Assembly: GCA_905235685.1 (NCBI GenBank)
Contig: CAJOMO010000005.1
Span: forward strand, 62,001 to 126,000
Source: an uncultured Selenomonadaceae bacterium
GTDB lineage: Bacteria > Bacillota > Negativicutes > Selenomonadales > Selenomonadaceae
Direction of reading: 5' to 3'
Length of the DNA: 64,000 nucleotides
The position numbers and the translations under genes are program-made. The notes under the pieces were generated by a model that was not told where the DNA came from, did no database searches, and saw only the letters and a list, made by a program, of their open reading frames with translations. How positions within the stretch are numbered: the stretch's first letter is position 1; every line of letters starts with the position of its first letter. Positions 22,902 through 35,021 of the stretch are shown here, piece by piece.

Positions 22902-23279
22902 TTAATAAATTTCCGCGTCTTCGGGATGTTTTCTGATGTAGTCCACGTATTTATTGTACTCGTCTTCAAAACCTTTGTCTTCCATTGCGTCAAGCTGAAA
23001 GGACATAAGCGCAATAGCGGCGATACGCGAAATTTCGTGCGATGGAAAAGTTTTAATCAAATGAATAATTGCTTTGGCGCTCTCTTCGATAACCTCGCCG
23101 TCGTACTTTGCGAAACGATTCATTAACAGCAAATCGAACATTTGTTGTTCCAAAGGCGACCAACCAAGCGCAATTCCGGCATTAGAGCGCGGATATTGCC
23201 CGTGAATATCAATTTCTTCGTCAGTGTCGCCAATATCCGGAATATACACTTCGTCGTCGTCAATAATGTTTTTCCGCAT
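22902..23279 (-). CDS. Hypothetical protein upstream of rfbD
   Basis: 125 residues with a good SD (GGGAGGG) 9 nt before the ATG. It is acidic at the N-terminus (KNIIDDDEVYIPDIGDTDEE). A helical region follows (about residues 40-110, with SPLEQQMFDLLLMNRFAKYDGEVIEES read in parts) that looks like a stack of amphipathic helices. No signal peptide, transmembrane segment or known motif was recognised. It precedes rfbD by 19 bp and may be its first co-transcribed gene. I do not recognise the family. Confidence 0.6.
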   Translation of the reverse strand: MRKNIIDDDEVYIPDIGDTDEEIDIHGQYPRSNAGIALGWSPLEQQMFDLLLMNRFAKYDGEVIEESAKAIIHLIKTFPSHEISRIAAIALMSFQLDAMEDKGFEDEYNKYVDYIRKHPEDAEIY

Positions 23280-23406
23280 TTATAAAATCCCTCCCAATGA
23301 ATTTTTTGGTATAACCGCGCTTAGTATATACCGATTGGCAATTTAAATCAAGTAAAGTGTTTTATGCGGGCGCGGCAGGATTTTTTTCAGCGGGCGTCAA
23401 ATAAAC

Positions 23407-23435
23407 TTGCAATGCTAAAAAGCAGATTGTTAATT
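23407..23435 (+). promoter_or_regulatory. Possible promoter of the 1828-residue protein gene
   Basis: TTGCAA at 23407-23412 and TTAATT at 23430-23435, 17-bp spacer, close to AAGGAGGG at 23442. The -10 is weak. Confidence 0.35.
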
Positions 23436-23457
23436 TTTTGTTAAGGAGGGATTCCCA

Positions 23458-26400
23458 ATGGATAGTCTAAGCTCCGAAATGATTGAACAACTTCGAGGTT
23501 TATTTGGGCAAATGGTTGAATCGCGACGGCATTTGCGCCCGATTTTATCAGACATTGCCGCCTCGATTGACAAGGGCTTTTTCATTGACGCTGATTCTGA
23601 AGAAGTAAATCAGCTGTTGAAAAAAATTTTGGAAGTGCAGGAGCAACTTTCCGGTGTCGAACAGCTTAAACGCGCCGCCAATTCAAAAAAACTTGAGCAA
23701 GTCGATAAAAGCCTGGGTTTATTGGAGCAAAATTGTAAACGCGACGAAATTAATTCAACCCTTGCGCGAATTTCCACTTTGGTTGTGGATTCGGAAGATC
23801 AAGCGATTTTGGACGCCGTTATGAAGGTTAAAATGCAGGCTGAACATTTGAGAAACAAATCCGGCAAATTAGAGCCCGCGCAATTCGATAAGCAAGCCGA
23901 GAGGTTTGTTTTGCTCGTTGAAATTATCGACAACGCGGAGGCTTTTTCCGCCAATGATTTTTTGAAAATCTCCGCCAGTTTCCAGGACAACCCGCTAATC
24001 GGTATGATTTTGACGAGTCATATTTTGCATTTTCCGCAGCCGGTTGAGGAAGAAGATTACGCTGAAGAAACTCCGCCGCCCAATGACGATAAGGAAAGTG
24101 CTTCGACTGAGCCGACTAAACACAAATTGAGCGCGGTTCGTCGGCAGGCGGATAAAATTCAGCCCGACCTTTCGCTGGTGCTTGTTGACGAAAAAAATTT
24201 TGTTATCGAAAAGGCGACCGTGAAAAAGTTGCTCACGATTAAATCTTTCAACAACAAGGTACATGAACTTTTTGACGCGGTTGATCCGATGCCGATTTTC
24301 AAAGTGCTGATTAAAACCAGGATATTTTTCAGCGACGACCCGAAGGATATTTTGGTTTCCGGCAAATTGACGAAAAAAATTGCCGCGCTTGTTCCGCGCA
24401 TTTTCAACAAACTTTTCAGTTGGGGAATTGTCGACAAAATCACGTGGCGCGGACGCGAATTTTATTTTCTTAATGATTTTGGCTTAGATTTGTGCATTCG
24501 TTCGTTTACGCACACTTCGCCGCCTTCGCCCGCTGAAAATTATTTTTCCGAAATGGTAAATTCTCTGCAATTTTCGATTATGCTCATGTCGGAGGCGCGG
24601 CTCAAAGGCGACCTCAAAATCAAATTCAATTACAATCCGAAAATACCGGCGGCGCGCGCGCTTATGCTTTCCAAAGAAGGCTCTATCGATGTAATTTTAA
24701 TGTTCTCGCTGATTTTGCTCGGCGAAAAGTGGGAACTTCAAATTGCGCGTTTCAAGCTTTTAATCGAACACGAAATTGATTCGCCTGCTGAATTGAAGGC
24801 GGTATTTTTATTTGCGTTTTCGGATAAAGATTTGCCGTGGCTGAAATTTTTCGACACCACCAAATTCAAGAAGATAAAATTTTTTATGCTGACGTGGGAC
24901 GGACTTTTGGATCAAGACGGCAAGGAAGTTGATTTGGACAATTGGAAAGACCTTTGCAATATTTCCGCGCCTATGGAAAATCCCAATTTCAGAAATTTTA
25001 AGCCGAAGGGCAGACCCAAAAAAAATGTCACTGTCGAAGATATTTTTGGATTTAAAACCGCCAAAAAACCAGCCGCGCCGAAAACTAATCCGCAGCCTAA
25101 AGAGCCCGAAATAAACCTTTTCGATTTTGACACCGCCGACGAAGATATTTCCGCGGAAGAAATTTTTGAAACCGAAATTGACGAGCCGATTGTTGACGTG
25201 GAAACCGAGCCGGTTATTGAAGTCGATGTTGAAACTGAAACTGAAATTATTTTTGAGCCGGAAGCCGAAACTAAAATTGAGCCGACGCCCGCGCCGGAGC
25301 CGGAAATTGAGATTGTCAAAACTTCGGACGAAGATATTGTAACGGCGGATATTTTGAGCAGTGTAACTAATCTTTTCAAAATCGGCGCGAATGGGCGCGG
25401 TATGCTGGCGTTGCACGCGCTGAAGGATTATTTTTCGGGCGAAGACGACGGCGAATTGGCGGTTGAATCGCTCACGAAAGAAATTGGCTTTATTCTTGAC
25501 GACCCGCTGACTTTGCGCAATCTGCATAATTTTGACACGTTTAACTTTTGGACGGGCGGCGCGGAAATTCCTAAGGCGAATCTCGGCAACACGTTTGATT
25601 ATCTGAATCTAGCCGCGACGATTAAAAATTTCTTTGCGCCCGCGAATCCTACCAGTTATCAACTTCAAAAACTTTGGAAACAAATTAACGAAGATAAGGC
25701 TAACAGCGTACTGAAAACTTTGCCCGCCGCGAAAAATCTTATCAGCGTTTTTAACATTTTCACTGAAAAAACTCACCGCGCCTTTGCCGATTGCCTTAGT
25801 CAGAGCGGCGATACCGGAGAAAATAAATTCAAAGCCGTGCTCGCGCAGATTGAGAATATGAAAAATGTTATCGAAAATGTTTTGCACTCGGACGTGAATC
25901 ACCGCCGCGTCAAAGACGTTATCACTCAGCTTTTCCGCAACAACGGCTTAGCGCGGAAATATCTTGACGTGGATAAATTTTCTGTGGACGAGATTTTGGA
26001 TTTTTGCCGCCGCTTCGAAAAGGTTGACCTGCGCGAGATTGTTGCCGACGCGAACGCGACGATTGACGACGAACTTTTTTCTGAAGATAAAATCGGCGAA
26101 TTTCTTGACTACGTTTGGGACAATCCGGTTGTGCAGATTGTTCGCCGCGAACACGAGCCATTTCACGGACCGAAACGCAAAAAAGTTACCGTGACGATGA
26201 CGCAACTTTTGACTACGCTTTTAAGTTATGTTCACGCGAAGAAAAATCTTGAAATTTCGGGCGGAAATGCTAAGCAGAGCGCGCCGGTTGATAAAGCGCT
26301 GGATATTTTAACCGATTTGAAAAAGCAAATCAATCGCGTAGATAAACGTTTGAATTTGGGCAATTTGGTTTTCCGCGCGTTTGTCGAAAATCTGATTAAG

Positions 26401-28944
26401 CGGCTCAAAGGCAAAGATACCGCGCTGAGTTACGACGAATGCCTGCTCGGCGCGAATTACATTGAGCTGGAAAATAATTTGCCGGTTATGGAATCTTTTG
26501 GCGTGGAAGAATTTTCGTTGAAAAATCGCACGGCTGAATTTGAGGAAAATCTGCGCGATAAGAATTTTTACGACACTTTGAAAATTGCGTACGAAACGGC
26601 GCTGAAAAATTATGACTGCGGGATTTTGCAGGATTTAGCTAAAAATTATTTTGTGGAGCTGGGGACTTCCGAGGAAGATATTAAGCGGAAAATTGCCGGA
26701 TTGGAGCGGCAGGTTGATAAACAAATCGAACGCATTTACAACGAATTTTTGAACGACCTCGAACTGGCGCGCAATTATTCACGCATTACCGACCAGGAGA
26801 AAATTGATTTTTACATTAACGCCGTCGTCAAGGCGAAGGAACATTTCACCGATACGAAAAACGCCGGACTTTTCCAGCGCTTTGTCAACGCCTGCTACGA
26901 TTCGATTAATCAGGCGTCGTTGCCGCAGAGAAACGCGCTGACGAAACGCCTTGAGAAACTTGAAGAAAATCTTGTAACCACGCTCAGCGGCGAAGAAACG
27001 CTTGAAACGCGATACCCGATTCTTGCCAATGTTCGCCGCCAAATCGATTTGATGAATTTGACGGTCGCCGAAGATTATATGAACCGCCTTGAAACCGAAG
27101 GTATAAATTTGCTGACGGAGCTTGACGTTACGGGTACGGATTTGCGCACGCTCGAAGATTTTCTTGTCGAATATGAAGGCTTGTTGCGCTCAATCGTAAA
27201 CGCGAACGGCTCGATTGAAGGCGCATATCGTCAACGCGCTCACGTTGGAAATAACCTTAGCCGTTTGAACCGCGAAACTCAAAATGCGCTGGAATTTGCG
27301 CGCGCGTGGCAGGGTATTCATTCTGGGCAAAATAACGCTATCAGAAGTTCGATTATCGATTTGCTGAACCGCCTCGGCTTTACCGGCGGCAATATCGTCG
27401 CGCAGAGCATGGACGCCATTAATCAAAAATCGTACACCGTGACTTTCCCTGAACCAATTAAAGCCCGCAATAGTTATCCGCACCCGTTTGCGATTTTCGG
27501 CACGGAACGCTTTATTAAGGGGCTTGAAATTATTTATTTGGGCGCGAACAGAGATTCGGCTGACAACATCGCCAAAGTTTTGGGCGATATGACTTCCGAA
27601 CGCGGCACGATTTGTTTTATGGATCACGCAATGACTTTGCCGGTGCGCCGCAGTCTTGCCAAATCCATTAAAATCGACGCGAATTTGAAAAATATTATCG
27701 TAATTGATAAAGTTATGATGCTGTATTTGACGCGCTTTGACGAGGCTAATCGCGGTAAAAAAATGCTGCAGGTTGCGTTGCCATTTGCGCGGATTCAGCC
27801 GTACACTTCGAAAGGCAAGGGCGTTGTTGCGCCGGAAATGTTTATCGGGCGCTCTGAAGAACTTGATAAAATTCGTGATATGTCCGGACCGGTTTTTGTT
27901 TACGGCGGGCGGCAGTTGGGTAAATCGGCGCTCCTTCGTCAAGTTCGCAGTCTTGAACACAATCCCGCCCAATTGAGCTACGCATTTTTTATCGATTTGA
28001 AGGGCTACGACGCCACGCAGACTTTGAAAAAAATAATTTTGGAATTGACGTCGGCAAAACTTATCGGCGAAGTCGAAACGTGGCAGGATTTTTCTTTCGA
28101 AATGCACAAATTGCTCAGCGGGCAACTTCGCGGCGTTATCAAGCCGAAAAAACTTTTCCTGCTGTTTGACGAAAGCGACGCCTTTTTGAGCAGTCCGGAT
28201 TCGGAAAAGGCAATTAATGTTCTGCGCGAGTTGCTTGTGGCGTTCAGCGGGCAATTCAAATTTGTGCTGGCGGGCGTGCATAAAGTCATTCGCTTTGAGC
28301 AAAATTCCAGTTTCGGCAACCTCAGCCACATTTCGGTTTTGCCATTTCGCCCGTCCGACGCTATGGAACTTCTCGTTAAGCCGATGAGTTATCTTGGTTT
28401 TCGTGTGGCGGACGACAGCCTGATTAGCGCTATTTTCAGTCGCACGAATTATTATCCTGGCTTGATTCAATATTATTGCAATATGCTGGTTGACGCGGTC
28501 GGAAATAATTACACAAAGCAGAATTTTAACGTTACTAAAAATCCGCCGTACACTCTCGACGACGATTATTTGAAAAATATGCTCAGCAATAACGACTTCC
28601 AAAAAGAAATTAACGCGCGCTTTCAAGAAACTTTGACTTTGGATAATGATAATTTTTATGAGATTTTAGCGCTGGCAATCGCTTGGATTTACTACGAAAA
28701 TAACCGTCCGGTGAGCGTTGAAGTTTCTGAAATTCGGAATATCTGCGTGATGTGCGGCGTTGAAAAAATTACTAAGTTGACTGACGCGGAACTTTTGAGC
28801 CTGCTCGATGAAATGGTCGCGCTGAATCTTCTGCGCCGCGTCGAAGGCAAATTTGAATTTAACCGCTACGCTTTTTGGCACATGATGGGCACTGAAACTG
28901 AAGTTAATGAAAAGCTCGATTCGTACGGGCTGAACGCGGAATGA
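23458..28944 (+). CDS. 1828-residue multidomain protein with C-terminal STAND-like ATPase
   Basis: ATG at 23458 behind AAGGAGGG. The N-terminal 200 residues are helical (coiled-coil-like). Residues about 240-350 have a possible winged-helix look (KLTKKIAALVPRIFNKLFSWGIVDKI read in parts). Residues about 540-630 are an acidic Glu/Thr/Pro linker, and 650-1330 are largely helical. Around 1345-1460 an alpha/beta region with IYLGANRDSADNI and NIIVIDKVMMLYL leads into EMFIGRSEEL (about 1462), P-loop YGGRQLGKSALL (about 1482) and Walker B LFLLFDESD (about 1566). The motif pair F-x-G-R then Y-G-G-R-Q-x-G-K marks a STAND/AAA-type signalling ATPase, and YPGLIQYYCNML plus a winged-helix-like tail follows. 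The role is unknown. A sensor-scaffold ATPase of a defence or stress system is an inference. The next gene begins 16 bp later. Confidence 0.72.
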   Translation: MDSLSSEMIEQLRGLFGQMVESRRHLRPILSDIAASIDKGFFIDADSEEVNQLLKKILEVQEQLSGVEQLKRAANSKKLEQVDKSLGLLEQNCKRDEINSTLARISTLVVDSEDQAILDAVMKVKMQAEHLRNKSGKLEPAQFDKQAERFVLLVEIIDNAEAFSANDFLKISASFQDNPLIGMILTSHILHFPQPVEEEDYAEETPPPNDDKESASTEPTKHKLSAVRRQADKIQPDLSLVLVDEKNFVIEKATVKKLLTIKSFNNKVHELFDAVDPMPIFKVLIKTRIFFSDDPKDILVSGKLTKKIAALVPRIFNKLFSWGIVDKITWRGREFYFLNDFGLDLCIRSFTHTSPPSPAENYFSEMVNSLQFSIMLMSEARLKGDLKIKFNYNPKIPAARALMLSKEGSIDVILMFSLILLGEKWELQIARFKLLIEHEIDSPAELKAVFLFAFSDKDLPWLKFFDTTKFKKIKFFMLTWDGLLDQDGKEVDLDNWKDLCNISAPMENPNFRNFKPKGRPKKNVTVEDIFGFKTAKKPAAPKTNPQPKEPEINLFDFDTADEDISAEEIFETEIDEPIVDVETEPVIEVDVETETEIIFEPEAETKIEPTPAPEPEIEIVKTSDEDIVTADILSSVTNLFKIGANGRGMLALHALKDYFSGEDDGELAVESLTKEIGFILDDPLTLRNLHNFDTFNFWTGGAEIPKANLGNTFDYLNLAATIKNFFAPANPTSYQLQKLWKQINEDKANSVLKTLPAAKNLISVFNIFTEKTHRAFADCLSQSGDTGENKFKAVLAQIENMKNVIENVLHSDVNHRRVKDVITQLFRNNGLARKYLDVDKFSVDEILDFCRRFEKVDLREIVADANATIDDELFSEDKIGEFLDYVWDNPVVQIVRREHEPFHGPKRKKVTVTMTQLLTTLLSYVHAKKNLEISGGNAKQSAPVDKALDILTDLKKQINRVDKRLNLGNLVFRAFVENLIKRLKGKDTALSYDECLLGANYIELENNLPVMESFGVEEFSLKNRTAEFEENLRDKNFYDTLKIAYETALKNYDCGILQDLAKNYFVELGTSEEDIKRKIAGLERQVDKQIERIYNEFLNDLELARNYSRITDQEKIDFYINAVVKAKEHFTDTKNAGLFQRFVNACYDSINQASLPQRNALTKRLEKLEENLVTTLSGEETLETRYPILANVRRQIDLMNLTVAEDYMNRLETEGINLLTELDVTGTDLRTLEDFLVEYEGLLRSIVNANGSIEGAYRQRAHVGNNLSRLNRETQNALEFARAWQGIHSGQNNAIRSSIIDLLNRLGFTGGNIVAQSMDAINQKSYTVTFPEPIKARNSYPHPFAIFGTERFIKGLEIIYLGANRDSADNIAKVLGDMTSERGTICFMDHAMTLPVRRSLAKSIKIDANLKNIIVIDKVMMLYLTRFDEANRGKKMLQVALPFARIQPYTSKGKGVVAPEMFIGRSEELDKIRDMSGPVFVYGGRQLGKSALLRQVRSLEHNPAQLSYAFFIDLKGYDATQTLKKIILELTSAKLIGEVETWQDFSFEMHKLLSGQLRGVIKPKKLFLLFDESDAFLSSPDSEKAINVLRELLVAFSGQFKFVLAGVHKVIRFEQNSSFGNLSHISVLPFRPSDAMELLVKPMSYLGFRVADDSLISAIFSRTNYYPGLIQYYCNMLVDAVGNNYTKQNFNVTKNPPYTLDDDYLKNMLSNNDFQKEINARFQETLTLDNDNFYEILALAIAWIYYENNRPVSVEVSEIRNICVMCGVEKITKLTDAELLSLLDEMVALNLLRRVEGKFEFNRYAFWHMMGTETEVNEKLDSYGLNAE

Positions 28945-28960
28945 GCGCGAGGTAATTTCA

Positions 28961-30043
28961 ATGGCAAAAAATTTGAGAATATCGTTGACAAATCAATACA
29001 CAATTTCAGAAAAAAAAATCGACTTCAGCAAAATGCAGGCGCTTGACGAAGACGATTTAGATTCGTGGTGGCGGACAGTGCCAGGAGCGCGTCGATTTAT
29101 GAAGGCGGCGATTGACGCTGTCGACAAACACTGCGCGATAGCCGCACATTTGCCGCAATTCGACACGGCGGGCTTTGTACAGATTTTGCGGGAAAAAATT
29201 CAGAGGCGGCACGTTTTTTTGATGGTTGAAGTTTTTGAATACAAAGGTGCGGGCGACGCTGAAGAATTTGTTGACGAATTGAAGGCTGAATTTGCGCCCA
29301 ATTTCCGGCGCGATTTTATCGAAGATTCGCCGATGGCAGATTTGGCGCGGCAAAATCCGTTGAGCGGCTACGCGATTATTATTCTACTGAAAAACAAAGC
29401 CGATTGGCTGACGAGCGCCGTTACCGACTTTAACAAAAATACTGCGAATATGGGCAGCTCATTAATTTTCGTGACGAATGAAGAAAACCCGCCGCCGAGT
29501 TTGACGCGCCTGTCGGATTATTTGACGCCGTACGACATACAATTTTTCGCGCTGAATTTGTTGGAGAACGCGCGGCTGACTGTGCAGGAAAAACTTTATA
29601 CGTCGACATTGGCGGCGAAACTTTCGGGGCAATCGGCGCAGCTGGCTAAAAATTTCGCGAAAACCGAACTGTACACGCACGGCTTGGATTTTGTGAAAAG
29701 CGTCCTGCCGAATTTTGACGAAAAAATTTTTAATCGCGCAGTTTGGGAATGTCAAACGCAATTTTTATTGCCGATATTGGAGCAGCTGCGGGGACGCTTA
29801 ATCGAAAAAAATTATGACAAATTGCGGAACGTTATGCACGTGACCGACGAATTTGGCAAGACGCTTGAAGATCCTTGGGATATGGAACTGCGGCACTTGC
29901 ACTATTACGGCGGCAAAAAAATGCTGTTTCAATATGGCGATTGGGAAAAACTTGAGCGAGCTTACAGCGCCCGAAATGACCTTTCGCACTTAAAGACAAT
30001 CGAATTGGCTCAAATGGAAAAAATTTTTCTGTTTGCCGAATAA
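28961..30043 (+). CDS. Hypothetical protein partner of the STAND-like ATPase
   Basis: 360 residues, ATG with GCGAGG 8 nt upstream, 16 bp after the large ATPase gene, so the two almost certainly form an operon. No family was recognised. Features: an Asp/Trp-rich segment near the N-terminus (DEDDLDSWWRTVPGARRFM), a probable alpha/beta part (HVFLMVEVFEY, YAIIILLKNKADWL, SSLIFVTNEENPPPS), and a helical C-terminal half ending with ARNDLSHLKTIELAQMEKIF. That last segment (A-R-N-D-L-S-H-x-K) resembles the conserved R-N-x-x-x-H neighbourhood seen in some HEPN-like helical domains, but the match is weak and only suggestive. No signal peptide or membrane segment. It is followed by the three-stem element. 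Confidence 0.6.
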   Translation: MAKNLRISLTNQYTISEKKIDFSKMQALDEDDLDSWWRTVPGARRFMKAAIDAVDKHCAIAAHLPQFDTAGFVQILREKIQRRHVFLMVEVFEYKGAGDAEEFVDELKAEFAPNFRRDFIEDSPMADLARQNPLSGYAIIILLKNKADWLTSAVTDFNKNTANMGSSLIFVTNEENPPPSLTRLSDYLTPYDIQFFALNLLENARLTVQEKLYTSTLAAKLSGQSAQLAKNFAKTELYTHGLDFVKSVLPNFDEKIFNRAVWECQTQFLLPILEQLRGRLIEKNYDKLRNVMHVTDEFGKTLEDPWDMELRHLHYYGGKKMLFQYGDWEKLERAYSARNDLSHLKTIELAQMEKIFLFAE

Positions 30044-30055
30044 GTGTAACGAGAA

Positions 30056-30172
30056 CCGCCCAAGGATGGGCGGCGAACCCCGCCCGCTGCTAATGAGCGT
30101 GAAGCGAATTATTCAGCGGGCAGTTTTCTTTCTTTGCTAAGCGTTTCTTTCTTTCCGAAAAGAAAGAAATGC
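30056..30172 (+). repeat. Three-stem intergenic element, copy 2
   Basis: Stem I: CCGCCCA (30056-30062), loop AGGA, TGGGCGG (30067-30073). Then CGAACCCC. Stem II: GCCCGCTG (30082-30089) with CAGCGGGC (30114-30121). Linker TTTTCTTTCTTTGCT. Stem III: GCGTTTCTTTCTTT (30141-30154) with AAAGAAAGAAATGC (30159-30172). Stem I differs in sequence from copies 3 and 4 but keeps full pairing. Confidence 0.8.
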
Positions 30173-30188
30173 TGTATTGATAATTTGT

Positions 30189-30217
30189 CCCGCTGTACCA
30201 ACACGGCGGGATTTTTT
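30189..30217 (+). terminator. Rho-independent terminator behind the ATPase/partner operon
   Basis: CCCGC (30189-30193) pairs with GCGGG (30206-30210), then ATTTTTT. The flank TTGTCCCGC belongs to the short dispersed repeat also seen at 11304 and 63537. Confidence 0.55.
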
Positions 30218-30225
30218 ATGTTAAA

Positions 30226-30654
30226 CTAATCGACAACGACAATCTGATTTTCGCCTAGATTTTTAAGATATTCATTCATATCAGCAAAAGTCATATTGTG
30301 TTCAATCGCTGAAATAATCACCGCGTCCCAGGAATTACGCGGATAAAGAATCGCATATCCGCCGTAGCGAAGCAGGTATTGAGTTTGAGCCAAATTCAAA
30401 TCCAAAACGCGGGCAATACCTATCAGTCTTTCGCGCGAAGTTTTTTTAGCGCCGGAAAAAATATGGTGAATATAGCTGTCGTCCAAAAACATTTCGAAGG
30501 CGACGTCGTGCCGCGTCAAATTTTTTTCGCGCAGAAGTTCACTCAAGTATTCGTGGAGCGGTTTAGAGAGTTCGCCCTTGTTCTTTTTGATAAATTTTCC
30601 GACGTCCGGATCAGCCTTCAGTTCGTTAAAAAGTTCGTCAGTGTCCTTTCCCAT
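30226..30654 (-). CDS. XRE-like helix-turn-helix protein
   Basis: 142 residues, ATG at 30654 with GGGGGC about 9 nt upstream. The central region SKPLHEYLSELLREKNLTRHDVA, then FLDDSYIHHIFSGAKKTSRERLIGIARVLDL (read in parts), has the helix order of a lambda-repressor-like HTH. Helix 2 is NLTRHDVAFEM, recognition helix DDSYIHHIFSG, then SRERLIGIARVL (about residues 45-95). The C-terminal 50 residues (LRYGGYAILYPRNSWDAVI) are an extra helical tail often attached to this HTH in Firmicutes. It is divergent from the Ser/Thr kinase gene 40 bp away, so it may control that promoter region and could be a kinase substrate. Both points are inferences. Confidence 0.72.
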   Translation of the reverse strand: MGKDTDELFNELKADPDVGKFIKKNKGELSKPLHEYLSELLREKNLTRHDVAFEMFLDDSYIHHIFSGAKKTSRERLIGIARVLDLNLAQTQYLLRYGGYAILYPRNSWDAVIISAIEHNMTFADMNEYLKNLGENQIVVVD

Positions 30655-30694
30655 AACAGCAATGCCCCCAATTTTTTTACAGGAAGTGAAAACT

Positions 30695-31675
30695 ATGAAT
30701 CCGCTGGATAATATTTACGAGACAATTGACATTTTTAAGCCGAATATCAAATTGGCGTATGACAAAATCGGCAAACAAATCTGCGTGATTAAAGAGCGGA
30801 ATTTAAAACTCTTGCCATTATACCAAATTCTGCGCGAAATAAACATTCCCTACGTGCCGGAAATTTACCGGCTGGTAAAATTCGACGAAAAATTATTCGT
30901 GGTTGAAGAATACATCAGCGGGCAAACGCTGTTGCAGTTGGTGAGGTACGAACAGCACATTGACGAACAATTGGCGGCGGAAATTTTGCGGCAGGTTTGC
31001 GAGGCGCTGAAGATTCTTCACGGACACAGAATCATTCACCGAGATTTGAAACCGTCGAATATTATGTTGACGCGGGACGGCGTGATTCGGCTGATCGACT
31101 TCAGCATTTCGCGCATTAAAAAAGACGACAGCGATACCGACACAGAATTTTTAGGAACGCGCGGCTACGCTTCGCCGGAGCAATACGGTTTCGGACAAAC
31201 TGATTCGCGCAGTGATATTTATTCGCTGGGCGTGACGATTTCGCGGCTCTTGGGCTCGAATTACAACGGCTGGCTAAAAAAAATTATCGCGCGCTGTACG
31301 AAACTTGACCCAATGCAGCGTTATTATTCCGCAGAAAATTTGTTAGCGGATTTGGACAGGCGCAAGTGGCAGCAGCATTTTAAACAGCTGAAAAAAAATT
31401 CCGGCAAGGTTGAGCCTGAGCCGGAGCCGGAATTGGATACTTACGAGAAACTTGACAGTTTTTGCAAGCAGGTTGAGGATATCGATTTGATGATTAACAA
31501 TTACCTGGAAGCGGACAGCGGAACATTGCAGGCGCGGCTGATTGAGCAAAGCGCGTTGCAAGCCGCAGAGGAGCTTGAAAAGTTCGCGCATTCTTTCACA
31601 GACGAAGATTTTGCCGAAATGCACGCCGCCCTTGAGGAATTTCCGCTTGTAGATTCTGATACAGAAATTGATTAA
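30695..31675 (+). CDS. Hanks-type Ser/Thr protein kinase without membrane anchor
   Basis: 326 residues from the ATG at 30695 (AGGAAGTG upstream); the longer frame back to 30578 runs through the HTH gene. Catalytic loop HRDLKPSNIML (about residues 115-125; Asp 117) and activation segment GTRGYASPEQYG with SDIYSLGVTISRLL are canonical. The metal-binding DFG reads DFS (about 135-137). The N-lobe has an IKE lysine, but no G-x-G-x-x-G loop can be seen (AYDKIGKQICVIKE), so nucleotide binding may be unusual. After the kinase domain a Glu/Pro stretch and a helical tail (about 235-326) end acidic; there is no transmembrane helix and no PASTA or FHA domain. No phosphatase is adjacent. An AAA+ operon follows with its own promoter. 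Confidence 0.9.
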   Translation: MNPLDNIYETIDIFKPNIKLAYDKIGKQICVIKERNLKLLPLYQILREINIPYVPEIYRLVKFDEKLFVVEEYISGQTLLQLVRYEQHIDEQLAAEILRQVCEALKILHGHRIIHRDLKPSNIMLTRDGVIRLIDFSISRIKKDDSDTDTEFLGTRGYASPEQYGFGQTDSRSDIYSLGVTISRLLGSNYNGWLKKIIARCTKLDPMQRYYSAENLLADLDRRKWQQHFKQLKKNSGKVEPEPEPELDTYEKLDSFCKQVEDIDLMINNYLEADSGTLQARLIEQSALQAAEELEKFAHSFTDEDFAEMHAALEEFPLVDSDTEID

Positions 31676-31688
31676 AAAAAATAAGCTG

Positions 31689-31717
31689 TTTACAAAGCGA
31701 AAATTGGGTAGTATAAT
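31689..31717 (+). promoter_or_regulatory. Strong predicted promoter of the AAA+ operon
   Basis: TTTACA at 31689-31694, 17-bp spacer, TATAAT at 31712-31717. It lies just after the kinase stop and shows the AAA+ operon can be expressed separately from the kinase. Confidence 0.75.
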
Positions 31718-31755
31718 GCACTGAATTATGAGTACAAATTTGCGAGGTGAATTAA

Positions 31756-31815
31756 TTGCCAATTAGAACTGCAAGTACTCAAACAAAAAACGAGTGGAAT
31801 ATTGAAAAAAAATAA
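31756..31815 (+). other. SD-led short ORF fused out of frame to the AAA+ gene at an A8 run
   Basis: TTG at 31756, 6 nt after GAGGTG, opens 19 codons ending TAA at 31813, straight after eight A (31805-31812). With seven A the frame would run into the AAA+ protein, extending it by about 15 residues. Confidence 0.5.
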
Positions 31816-32716
31816 GCCGCCTGAAAAATCTGATGAAAAACAGCCGGCGGAAGAAGTTTTCGTTCCGGAAGAGCCGCGCTACACGCTGGACGATATAATT
31901 TTGCCGCCCTCGACGCGCGACCAAATTTTGGACGTGGCAACTTACGCGGAAAATTCGCACTTAGTTTTTGAGCTGTGGGGTTTCAAACGCACGCACGCTT
32001 ATTCCAAAAGAATCGGCGTCAATTTGTACGGCGCGCCCGGCACGGGCAAAACTATGGCGGCTCACGCTATCGCCAAAAAACTCGGCAAGAAAATTTTAAT
32101 CGTCAACTACGCCGATATCGAATCAAAGTACGTCGGCGAGACGCCCAAAAATATTCGCAGGGCGTTTGAGGCGGCGAAAAATTCCGGCAGCATTTTGTTT
32201 TTCGACGAAGCCGACGCCATTTTGAGCAAGCGCGTTACGAATATGTCAAGCGCGACCGACGTCAGCGTCAATCAAACGCGTTCGGTCATGCTCATGCTCA
32301 TGAATGAGTACGAGGATTTTATAATTTTTGCCACAAATTTCATTGAGAATTTTGATCCGGCGTTTATGCGGCGAATTTCCGTCCACGTGAAATTTGACCT
32401 TCCGGACGAAGACTGCCGCCAAAAACTTTGGGCAAAATATATTCCGCCCGAATTGCCGAATAATCTTGACGCGGCGGAACTTGCCCAAAAATTTGACAAC
32501 CTTTCGGGCAGCGACATTGCGAATGCCATGCTAAATTCTGCGTTCAAAGCGGCGCGAATGGGTTTGACTTCGCTGGATAAAAATTTGGTGTTCGAGGCTG
32601 TCGAAAATATTTTGGCGAGCAAGGCGGCGAATCAGAAAATTACCGTCACCAAGCGTAAAGTTTCTGAGGATTATGTTAAGCAACAAGTTGCCGACGGGAA
32701 AGGGGAATTGATTTAA
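31802..32716 (+). CDS. AAA+ ATPase (FtsH/Cdc48-like core)
   Basis: 304 residues from TTG at 31802, a start with a poor SD. The better SD serves an upstream 19-codon frame that would be continuous with this one if the A8 run had seven A. Walker A GAPGTGKT (about 77-84), the pore-loop-like ESKYVGET, Walker B SILFFDEADAIL (about 129-140), sensor 1 FATNF and the arginine finger region AFMRRI are all present, followed by a lid domain with SGSDIANAML. The N-terminus is a short charged segment, so substrate choice likely relies on adaptors. Three small related proteins follow directly in the operon and may be adaptors, regulators or substrates. Remodelling rather than proteolysis is expected because no protease domain is attached. 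Confidence 0.88.
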   Translation: MKKNKPPEKSDEKQPAEEVFVPEEPRYTLDDIILPPSTRDQILDVATYAENSHLVFELWGFKRTHAYSKRIGVNLYGAPGTGKTMAAHAIAKKLGKKILIVNYADIESKYVGETPKNIRRAFEAAKNSGSILFFDEADAILSKRVTNMSSATDVSVNQTRSVMLMLMNEYEDFIIFATNFIENFDPAFMRRISVHVKFDLPDEDCRQKLWAKYIPPELPNNLDAAELAQKFDNLSGSDIANAMLNSAFKAARMGLTSLDKNLVFEAVENILASKAANQKITVTKRKVSEDYVKQQVADGKGELI

Positions 32717-33055
32717 ATGGGACCTTTGATTGCATTACTTATTGCTATAGGTGTTGGCTCTGCGGTTGCATTTGTATTTTGGGACGATCTTGTAAGATGG
32801 ATTCAAAGTTTTATTATGCGCCTCCAAAATAAATTTAATGCATTGAAAAGAAAGTATGCCGAAAAGCTTTTTCATTGGTTGGGCGATAAGTACAATCTTG
32901 AGCATAAACTTTATTACAAGGAAAATGGCGAATACGTCGAGGAAGTCACAACCCGCACCGTACCCGAGAGTGAAGTTCCGGATTGGGCGAGAGAGGCGCT
33001 TGACGAGGAAGATTGCACCGAAGTTTACGAACAAGAATTGGGATTGAGTTTATGA
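32717..33055 (+). CDS. Small membrane-anchored protein, family member 1 of the AAA+ operon
   Basis: 112 residues, ATG at 32717 directly after the AAA+ stop. The N-terminus is one hydrophobic helix (GPLIALLIAIGVGSAVAFVF). A soluble part follows with KYAEKLFHWLG, then LYYKENGEYVEEV, and ends PDWAREALDEEDCTEVYEQEL. The segments K-Y-A, Y-Y-K-E-N and P-D-W-A-R-x-x-L-D are shared with the next gene, and more distantly with the third. No known domain was recognised. The gene overlaps the next start by 4 bp (ATGA), so expression is coupled. The anchor could recruit the AAA+ ATPase to the membrane; this is a guess. Confidence 0.7.
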   Translation: MGPLIALLIAIGVGSAVAFVFWDDLVRWIQSFIMRLQNKFNALKRKYAEKLFHWLGDKYNLEHKLYYKENGEYVEEVTTRTVPESEVPDWAREALDEEDCTEVYEQELGLSL

Positions 33056-33405
33056 GGTTTATCGATTTGCCTATTATGCCGCCTCCATCAACTTTACGGA
33101 AAATGCTTGGTATAATTTTAAATTTTGATGAGCTGTGCACTTGGCTGAAAGATTTGCTTATTCAAGTTCAAGACAGATTTAATAAATCAAACCAGAAATA
33201 TGCCGTGCAGATTTTCCATCGGTTGAACGACGACGATAAATACAGTCTCGAGGTTCGAATTTATTACAAGGAAAATGAAGAGTACTTTGAAGAAACCATT
33301 ATCGCCAAGATTTCCATGAAAGAAATTCCGGATTGGGCGCGAGCTGAACTTGACAAGGAAGATGTTACTGATTTGTATAATGAGAAATTAAAATTGAATA
33401 TTTGA
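33052..33405 (+). CDS. Small protein, family member 2 of the AAA+ operon
   Basis: 117 residues from the ATG at 33052, which overlaps the previous stop (ATGA). The earlier in-frame codon at 33013 lies within member 1. The N-terminus (RFIDLPIMPPPSTLRKMLGIIL) is less hydrophobic than in member 1 and probably not a full membrane helix. The middle and C-terminus repeat the same scheme: KYAVQIFHRLN, then IYYKENEEYFEET, then IPDWARAELDKEDVTDLYNEKL. Tandem duplication from member 1 is the likely origin. No enzyme motif is visible. Confidence 0.7.
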   Translation: MRFIDLPIMPPPSTLRKMLGIILNFDELCTWLKDLLIQVQDRFNKSNQKYAVQIFHRLNDDDKYSLEVRIYYKENEEYFEETIIAKISMKEIPDWARAELDKEDVTDLYNEKLKLNI

Positions 33406-33418
33406 GGAGTTAGTGAAA

Positions 33419-33802
33419 ATGGGGATTTTGCCAATAGATTTGAAGGGGCTTGGTTTACAGGCTTTGATTGATACGGCGCTTAAGTCGCTTGAGCAAATGC
33501 TTCGTCCAAATATGAGCCTTGACGAAGTTGCCGAAAAACTTTCACCGCGTGTCGACAACATTATTACAAAGCATATCAATGAGGGTAACAAGTATGCCGC
33601 TGGGAAATTTAAAATTTTTGCCGAAGAAAACGAAAAATTTGCTGTGAATTTTGAGCTGTACTTTAAGGATACTGATGGTAAATGGCTTAAAGTTACAAGC
33701 AATAGCCAAGCGTTGGACGCCAAAGAATGGTTATCACCAGAGGCGATTAATGAACTGCAAGAGGCGCGGGAAAAAGTTTATGACATTACCGCGCCGGAAT
33801 AA
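33419..33802 (+). CDS. Small protein, diverged family member 3 of the AAA+ operon
   Basis: 127 residues from the ATG at 33419, 9 nt after GAGGAG; the GTG at 33413 is too near the SD. The N-terminal half is helical (LQALIDTALKSLEQMLRP, then LDEVAEKLSPRVDNIITKHI). The C-terminal half keeps the family outline in weak form: NKYAAGKFKIFAEEN, FELYFKDTDGKWLKV, and AKEWLSPEAINELQEA in place of P-D-W-A-R-x-x-L-D. It lies 13 bp after member 2. It is followed by a terminator at 33868. Function unknown. Confidence 0.65.
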   Translation: MGILPIDLKGLGLQALIDTALKSLEQMLRPNMSLDEVAEKLSPRVDNIITKHINEGNKYAAGKFKIFAEENEKFAVNFELYFKDTDGKWLKVTSNSQALDAKEWLSPEAINELQEAREKVYDITAPE

Positions 33803-34124
33803 AGTAAGCGCATATATTTAGAGGCGGATTTAATGGGAAGTCCTGCGAATAAGTTGTTTTTTATGCACCCGCGTTTTGCGGGAATTTTTTTGCACAAAGG
33901 CTGAAGAGTTTCAGTCTCAAATGGTCATTGGCGTATTTCAGCAGAAGAACCGAACGCAGATGAAGCAGTTTCAGTGTTAACGACTCTTATAAAGTAGAGA
34001 GAATCGGGGAATCATGACTATATTTTAAATTCGTAACTGAATAAAAAATACTTCGCCGAGATTTACAGCGAAGCAGAATATTTAAAAATGAATTACGACG
34101 CCTGCACGAAATTAAAAACAGAGT
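33803..34124. other. 322-bp gene-poor stretch between the AAA+ operon and the beta-propeller gene
   Basis: It contains a possible 23-codon ORF (ATG 33832 behind GAGGCGGA, stop at 33903) and a terminator inside it. A short inverted repeat CTTCGC/GCGAAG lies near 34052-34075. Otherwise no coding signal, tRNA or recognised RNA structure was seen. The stretch marks the boundary between plus-strand accessory genes and minus-strand cbi/rfb genes. Confidence 0.5.
33868..33891 (+). terminator. Rho-independent terminator of the AAA+ operon
   Basis: CCCGC (33868-33872), loop GTTTT, GCGGG (33878-33882), then AATTTTTTT. Confidence 0.7.
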
Positions 34125-35021
34125 TCAGTGATTCAAATTAATCTCGATAATGCGGCTGGTAACCAAATCGGGAATGTACAAAATGCCGCGCGCTTGAGCA
34201 ATGTCCGCCGGACCGATACCGTTTTCACGGTACACGACGCGGACTTTTTTTGTTTTAATGTCAATCGATTTGACGCTGGAAGTCAGCCAATCCGAAAAAT
34301 ACAGCGTCCGCGCATTATCCGAAAGAGCCACGCCGTCATAGAGCCCGGGCACATTGTAAAAAATTTCGGCAACAGGATTTTCTAAATCGCTCACGCGGTA
34401 AATAACATTTTCGTCGGTAACGTTGCTGTAATCGGCGGGAATTGACGCAATGTACATAACGCCGCCGCCAATCGCCAATCCGTTTGGTCCAGGAATTTCA
34501 AGCCAAAGTTGCGGCTGAACTTCATTCATTCGCGAAGGATCGCTTATGTCCAAAGAATAAATTCTGCCGGTGTTGGTTATCGAAACGTAAAGCGTTGTAC
34601 CATTCGCGGCAAGTGCGTTGACAACTTTATCGTCCTCGGCGAAAGTTATAATTTGCGGCTCAATGTTGTAATTTTTCAAATCGTAGACAATCAGCCGCGT
34701 ATCGTCGCAGACAAATAAATGACCGAATCGAACGAGCGTGGCGGTTGGTTTGTGCAAACCGTCGACAATCACTTGATTGACGCCATTTTTCCGCAAAAGA
34801 ATATAGCCTTTGTTTTCTCCAGGCGCGGGATTCATCGTTGCCGAGCCGAAATTTGAAATTAACAGCCCGCCGTCATAGGGCAAGATACTTTCGGAAAATC
34901 TGATATCGTCGTCGTAAACAGAAACAATCGGCGTGGTATCGGCTTTGGCGGGTTTAGCTTCAGCCGAAAAACAATTCGCCGCGAATAGCACAGCCGCCGT
35001 TAGTGCGGTAATTTTTTTCAT
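34125..35021 (-). CDS. Exported beta-propeller (SMP-30/NHL-like) protein
   Basis: 298 residues from the ATG at 35021 with GGAGGC 8 nt upstream. A signal peptide (KKITALTAAVLFAANCFSAEA) precedes repeating strand units such as GLLISNFGSATMN, GHLFVCDDTRLIVYDL, TTLYVSITNTGRIYSLDI, GVMYIASIPADY, RTLYFSDWLTSSVKSIDI and GILYIPDLVTSRI. These are typical of six-bladed propellers of the SMP-30/gluconolactonase or NHL type. No lactonase active site was confirmed. It lies 15 bp downstream of cbiT on the same strand, so it may be co-transcribed with the cobalamin genes, possibly as a periplasmic binding protein. Confidence 0.72.
   Translation of the reverse strand: MKKITALTAAVLFAANCFSAEAKPAKADTTPIVSVYDDDIRFSESILPYDGGLLISNFGSATMNPAPGENKGYILLRKNGVNQVIVDGLHKPTATLVRFGHLFVCDDTRLIVYDLKNYNIEPQIITFAEDDKVVNALAANGTTLYVSITNTGRIYSLDISDPSRMNEVQPQLWLEIPGPNGLAIGGGVMYIASIPADYSNVTDENVIYRVSDLENPVAEIFYNVPGLYDGVALSDNARTLYFSDWLTSSVKSIDIKTKKVRVVYRENGIGPADIAQARGILYIPDLVTSRIIEINLNH

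Follow-up and report, generated by a model that had tools for sequence, protein, structure and literature searches.

A giant STAND-class ATPase and a partner with a probable HEPN domain form a recurrent two-gene module, a candidate defence switch, in a composite Selenomonadaceae gene cluster

Results

Eight genes in a 10.3-kb run

The window analysed here, a 64,000-nucleotide stretch of a 1.96-Mb genome from an uncultured Selenomonadaceae bacterium, contains a 10.3-kb run of genes which comes after a minus-strand group including rfbD-like and 125-aa genes (Table 1). The run had been picked out in an earlier, sequence-only reading as a defence-like ensemble of eight genes. All eight are open reading frames with homologues in relatives and, because they are conserved there as proteins, they are not chance reading frames; that reading was right about their positions and also, we accept, about the defence-like character of their composition. 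A Pfam scan recognised AAA_22 at the C-terminus of the first and largest protein (the giant), HTH_3 in the regulator, Pkinase in the kinase (1.4e-34) and AAA in the 304-aa protein (1.4e-29), while the partner and the small proteins of the window gave no family-scan match. We divide the eight genes into modules A, B and C.

Table 1. Features of the gene cluster, in window coordinates.
Feature	Position	Strand	Remarks
Giant (module A gene 1)	23458-28944	+	1828-aa ORF
ATPase core, Walker A to NYYPGLIQ motif	27904-28449 (approximate)	+	inside gene 1
Partner (module A gene 2)	28961-30043	+	360-aa ORF
R-N-x-x-x-H (HEPN Rx4-6H) codons	29972-29989	+	RNDLSH at aa 338-343
Dispersed palindromic intergenic repeat	30044-30185		not module-specific
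Terminator-like hairpin closing module A	~30187-30219	+	longest-stem, G+C-rich such site within 23250-34150
HTH_3 regulator (module B)	30226-30654	-	142 aa; divergent from kinase
Ser/Thr protein kinase (module B)	30695-31675	+	326 aa; ATG at 30695; HRDLKPSN and GTRGYASPEQ motifs
Promoter-like site before module C	31689-31717	+	TTTACA-17-TATAAT; 11/12 match, region's best; consensus match only
IetA-related AAA+ ATPase (module C)	31802-32716	+	304 aa; TTG start
Small protein 1 (module C)	32717-33055	+	112 aa; N-terminal hydrophobic segment
Small protein 2 (module C)	33052-33405	+	117 aa from ATG 33052; paralogue of small protein 1
Small protein 3 (module C)	33413-33802	+	129 aa from GTG 33413; 127 aa from ATG 33419

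The best terminator-like site of the region falls between the partner and HTH genes (the A/B boundary) and its best promoter-like site between the kinase and AAA+ genes (the B/C boundary), each being a consensus match only. On the strength of these two sites the run is probably transcribed as three units, not two. The sequence-only reading had left open whether the run was one system or two adjacent modules; the separateness stands, and the number has to be raised to three. Its three-stem element downstream of the partner is real, with a fold z-score of -7.65, but is not specific to the module, since it has 57 matches in the same genome. We rejected a regulatory RNA here because the element is a dispersed repeat and has no Rfam match. 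Separately, a possible 19-codon leader ORF with a TTG start (LPIRTASTQTKNEWNIEKK) lies at 31756-31815 and extends across the AAA+ gene's own TTG start; translation of the two may be coupled.

Three neighbouring modules rather than one cassette

We surveyed gene neighbourhoods in 61 genomes, 37 of them from the genus; many of the genus genomes are incomplete MAGs, so absences from them are soft. Modules A, B and C are adjacent only in the genome holding the window (G000) and in two sister genomes (G018 and G034), whose gene order differs from that of the window. G004 has its HTH gene in place, and its contig ends there. The giant and partner recur without kinase or AAA+ gene in nearly all relatives and are the sole repeated unit among the neighbourhoods examined. 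The HTH and kinase genes likewise form a divergent pair (HTH within 600 nt and in the opposite direction) at 38 of 47 kinase loci, spread over 27 genus genomes, and the module C AAA+ gene has loci of its own, shared with small proteins, in at least eight genus genomes (L180-L185, L187, L199). The cluster is therefore three neighbouring independent modules, and we have high confidence that the two genes of module A form a unit of their own, apart from B and C. The single ensemble proposed from the sequence does not survive these counts; adjacency in three genomes comes close to the complete lack of co-occurrence that the proposal had itself named as counter-evidence.

Module C is a separate mobile operon. 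Plasmids of Moraxella osloensis and Comamonas resistens carry the AAA+ gene plus three small genes (L372:3962-6383; L374:2866-5145), flanked by insertion sequences or toxin-antitoxin genes. Small proteins 1 and 2 of these plasmids match the window family profile (E 2e-11 to 6e-6), and the third has no match to it. In the window, small proteins 1 and 2 are 38.6% identical (E 5e-28) and the third shows remote kinship to both (hhalign P 0.0015), so that the three paralogues originally described reduce to two and a distant relative. The AAA+ protein resembles IetA (E 2e-37 to IetA profiles). Membership of IetAS was rejected, with an NCBIfam score of 125 bits against a cut-off of 510 and no subtilase IetS or protease gene adjoining; where IetAS has its subtilase gene, module C encodes small proteins, one of which carries a hydrophobic segment at the N-terminus. 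Moraxella phage Mcat5 carries a 52%-identical AAA+ gene at its end.

The giant has conserved ATPase motifs

From N- to C-terminus, the giant comprises a wing-helix-like segment and an alpha/beta domain (aa ~260-485), an acidic linker (~500-625), a long helical region (~625-1290), a second alpha/beta domain (~1300-1440), the AAA+/STAND core, with Walker A GGRQLGKS at aa 1483 and Walker B DE at 1571-1572, and a C-terminal region (~1690-1815). The AAA_22 match scored 28.5 bits, over the cut-off of 27, and ATPase_2 scored 21.5 bits, under its cut-off of 33.2; a profile of the giant weakly matched the archaeal ATPase structures 2fna (E 0.0014) and 2qen (E 0.34). The C-terminal 560 residues carry the signature PEMF-GR...GGR[QR]LGK[ST]...DExD...NYYP. 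Walker A GGRQLGK with S or T in last position is found in 66/66 full-length homologues, as is the Walker B aspartate, and the Walker B glutamate is kept in all except one of them (65/66, one E-to-V change). Judged by these motifs the giant is an intact STAND/ORC-class ATPase, and the proposal of a giant STAND-like ATPase with a partner is borne out.

An AlphaFold2 model of aa 236-1435 had a pLDDT of 81 with a disordered linker, and Foldseek returned no solved-structure match to this part below E 1e-3. PDB sequence searches with the giant, the partner and the partner profile gave no match, and neither protein matched a PADLOC model up to E 1. We considered a PD-(D/E)xK nuclease at aa 340-485, where the topology is suggestive only, and make no such claim because conservation of polar residues in that segment never exceeds 60% of homologues. 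Two unusual relatives were seen. One genome (G003; L064:8332-11931) encodes a 1199-aa relative without the Walker A region, next to a retained partner 34% identical to that of the window. On a Brasilonema plasmid (L031:4459-11664) the N-terminal part of the giant ORF is a complete sigma-70 factor (regions 1.2-4), possibly through mis-joining of the ORF, and a PLD-SNF2 helicase gene follows.

The partner probably ends in a HEPN domain

The partner was modelled confidently (pLDDT 93.6) and has an AAA+/STAND-like fold without a P-loop at aa ~30-250, for which the best Foldseek matches were RFC, NB-ARC and ORC (E 1e-4 to 7e-4). A P-loop is absent from the expected site across the family alignment; two regular-expression matches to a P-loop were discarded, both falling at non-homologous places. 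We do not claim that the partner derived from the giant's ATPase, since profile-profile comparison showed no significant similarity.

The C-terminal part (aa ~254-360) is all-helical in the model, and a R-N-x3-H motif lies inside a helix. This motif is present in 50/50 aligned homologues, and the invariant residues of the family are W36, Q265, E274, R277, R338, N339 and H343. It fits the HEPN motif rule given in passages of the review by Anantharaman et al., 2013 (PMC3710099), namely R, then N, D or H, with a spacing of 4-6. Single members gave weak matches to HEPN_Swt1 (five members), HepT-like, HEPN_Apea and DUF4145; the window partner itself gave none, no HEPN family reached its cut-off in the partner family scans, and the Foldseek matches listed were AAA+ proteins, none of them a structure of the four- to five-helix bundle that defines the HEPN fold. 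In a profile alignment with Swt1-type HEPN, RN..AH pairs with RN.WAH (P 0.0037). On the basis of the invariant motif, the weak family matches and this alignment, we call the C-terminus a probable HEPN domain, a feature overlooked when the gene was first noted.

The pair is widespread and variably placed

In the roughly 85,000 species genomes scanned, 563 confirmed stretches code for a relative of the giant's ATPase region, and the best 80 of these were kept, a sample biased to Firmicutes. Of the 77 giants that are resolved and followed by 1.1 kb or more of sequence, two viral-collection loci among them, 65 have a partner at most 900 nt downstream on the same strand, and the ends of the two genes commonly touch or overlap by a few bases. 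Four further loci (L203, L223, L274, L281) have a diverged, shifted or longer partner, and in two genomes (G028, L204; G008, L215) both genes are retained on separate contigs. The pair occurs in Selenomonadaceae, Lachnospiraceae, Paenibacillaceae, one spirochaete and Salinibacter, as well as on proteobacterial and actinobacterial plasmids and one phage-like contig; a search of 50,697 phage records found no homologue. Among public contigs, those nearest to the window come from uncultured Selenomonadaceae MAGs; the best match (L200, 98% over the ATPase region) is from red deer, and others are from rumen samples.

Among the 61 genomes searched, giants were found in one genome of another family in the class and in 30 of the 37 genus genomes, of which many are incomplete. 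They sit at differing sites and so do not behave as core genes of invariable presence, the other outcome that had been named as counting against a defence cassette. Six genus genomes, including that of the window, have the giant beside the 125-aa/rfbD genes (L035, L036, L038, L042, L043 and the window), with the 125-aa gene itself undetected in L043. At five loci (L314, L315, L327-L329) those genes are kept without a giant, which is elsewhere in the genome. The six linked giants are not one clade in the giant tree, so relocation or genome rearrangement has happened. A distant giant/partner subfamily (25-28% identity) lies downstream of a Liv-like ABC-transporter operon in about 13 genus genomes (L050-L062).

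No other gene family recurs around the pair: 138 neighbours yielded matches to 165 Pfam families, each seen in at most three. By Pfam the Firmicutes neighbours are mostly metabolic and unrepeated. Defence genes near pairs are scattered (Csn2, DrmC, a DarT1-type NADAR antitoxin and PADLOC candidates), and these are raw occurrences. Helicase-rich neighbourhoods lie beside GTA/tail genes in L280 and in Methylocystis, and a Thiodictyon locus has integrase/recombinases near the pair. On an Agrobacterium Ti plasmid (L368:11301-17577) genes for a ThiF adenylyltransferase and a patatin-like phospholipase lie no more than a few genes beyond the pair.

Distant giants are joined to pPIWI-RE

At four loci (L365, L366, L281, L364) pPIWI-RE is fused to the giant or encoded directly before it. 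Bradyrhizobium elkanii pS15H and Microvirga pMVF16-3 each encode the giant as a single protein, of 3100 or 3394 aa, with pPIWI_RE_X, MID and RNaseH domains at its N-terminus, and a viral-collection contig encodes a 3177-aa giant protein with MID and RNaseH. In Azospirillum, REase-Y, Z-domain and pPIWI-RE genes lie directly upstream of giant and partner; the RNaseH domain is split there over two adjacent ORFs, perhaps by a frameshift. Partners at these plasmid loci retain R-x4-H, and those of Azospirillum, Bradyrhizobium and Microvirga have an extra C-terminal P-loop kinase-like domain (AAA_33-type where scanned). This link is confined to distant relatives, the Pfam scan having found no pPIWI-RE protein among the cassette genes of the window.

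Discussion

We propose that the two components of module A make up an ATP-dependent defence switch in which a sensor would unleash a putative HEPN RNase on invaders, a reading drawn from sequence and structural models to which we give a probability of about 0.6. The long helical and wing-helix regions of the giant would detect an invader product, whether protein or nucleic acid, and the giant, given ATP, would change state or oligomerise. It might then take up the partner's P-loop-less AAA+-like domain as a subunit that is itself inactive, bringing two HEPN domains together and switching on RNA cleavage, with abortive infection or dormancy as the outcome. We infer each of these steps, from ATP-driven activation through partner docking, HEPN dimerisation and RNA cleavage to the abortive outcome. 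The giant may also serve as a chassis for plug-in sensors, such as the whole pPIWI-RE protein found at its N-terminus in Alphaproteobacteria. A role in defence is supported by the conservation of the pair, the RNx3H and Walker motifs, the pPIWI-RE and helicase context, carriage on plasmids and variable placement in the genus. Of all this evidence, the pPIWI-RE fusions argue most strongly for a place of the chassis in invader defence.

Against this, the phage records searched yielded no homologue, and the presence of the giant in so many genus genomes and of one subfamily beside a transporter operon would also fit a housekeeping role. Module A might accordingly be a core or stress RNA-processing device, in which an ATP-gated HEPN RNase acts on cellular RNA; the frequency of the giant in the genus, the stable placement of that subfamily and the mostly metabolic Firmicutes neighbours all speak for such a device. 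We nevertheless think it unlikely given the patchy sites, the absence of the giant from some genomes, the plasmid carriage, the pPIWI-RE fusion and the helicase/nuclease neighbourhoods. Somewhat less likely again is that the giant is a restriction-like machine which loops or translocates DNA via its wing-helix/REase-like and ORC-type parts, the HEPN protein being a suicide effector kept as a back-up and set free on failure of the main activity. The ORC/Cdc6-STAND class of the ATPase, the wing-helix-like segments and an alpha/beta segment with weakly REase-like topology are consistent with such a machine, as are the pPIWI-RE-type REase and Z genes nearby in Azospirillum, and a review of Dnd systems proposes suicide back-up roles for HEPN proteins next to restriction systems (PMC10853773). 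However, the REase-like segment shows no polar residue of notable conservation, and the Firmicutes pair recurs without a nuclease or helicase partner. Finally, a single eight-gene system in which the giant ATPase, HTH, kinase, AAA+ and small proteins act jointly is very improbable, since the packing of eight genes into 10.3 kb, mostly on one strand, and the shared neighbourhood in the two sister genomes are outweighed by the giant pair lacking B and C everywhere else, by module B standing alone as a pair at 38 loci, by module C without A at many loci and on foreign plasmids, by the terminator and promoter matches between the modules and by the altered gene order in both sisters.

How does the proposed defence switch compare with known systems? 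To judge from the profiles, module A as a whole matches no Pfam, NCBIfam or PADLOC system, in agreement with the sequence-only reading, which could not name one; an Avs/AVAST-type assignment finds no PADLOC defence-profile match in either giant or partner. A close likeness is to the STAND/ORC-Cdc6 NTPase immune sensors with HEPN covered in passages of the Anantharaman et al. review, which lists HEPN-STAND fusions: in both, a STAND-class ATPase is coupled to HEPN, and the partner fits the motif rule. Compared with the sensors in those passages, module A splits ATPase and HEPN over two proteins, its HEPN protein has an AAA+-like domain of its own that lacks a P-loop, and its ATPase reaches 1.7-2.1 kaa with helical and alpha/beta regions; the pair was not found in the passages of that review searched. 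BREX BrxB and the DUF499-HEPN BREX-related ATPases (PMC12839542) offer a further parallel, since their defence loci use STAND/ORC-type folds that lack Walker motifs as well as ORC-like ATPases fused to HEPN. Module A differs from them in having no DUF499, PglZ or methylase gene, and DUF499-HEPN is a single protein with an N-terminal HEPN domain, unlike the two-gene module A; no cassette gene had a Pfam or NCBIfam match to a DUF499-type ATPase, methylase, helicase or PglZ. The three-gene islands of Burroughs et al., 2013 (PMC3702460) consist of REase, DinG and pPIWI-RE, and neither a HEPN partner nor an AAA ATPase is mentioned there. The distant relatives in Azospirillum, Bradyrhizobium, Microvirga and the viral-collection contig share pPIWI-RE domains with these islands, upstream of or fused to the giant, which is followed by the HEPN partner; the window pair has no pPIWI-RE. 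We found no description of the giant/HEPN pair in the literature, of which subscription papers were mostly outside our coverage, so that this absence is not proof. The pair is a variant of STAND-HEPN-type systems with a pPIWI-RE link.

A bolder and more tentative idea, to which we give rather less than even odds, is that the giant and the AAA-HEPN partner constitute an unnamed, bacteria-wide immune chassis. The giant itself would sense the invader in the minimal form, that of Firmicutes, and in Alphaproteobacteria a captured, complete and Argonaute-like pPIWI-RE protein would wire PIWI-type recognition through the STAND ATPase to the HEPN RNase, which there has an extra P-loop kinase-like domain. 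If true, this would give pPIWI-RE proteins a previously unrecognised output that is RNA-cleaving and abortive.

The locus illustrates how independent modules, piled up side by side, can make a striking gene cluster. The giant's ATPase region appears to be present in several hundred genomes, yet Pfam sees just a generic AAA domain in the giant and nothing in the window partner, and PADLOC sees neither protein. If the mechanism holds, module A would represent a widespread sensor/HEPN pair whose effector has its own P-loop-less ATPase-like domain, and pPIWI-RE, the output of which has so far just been predicted, would be linked to RNA cleavage.
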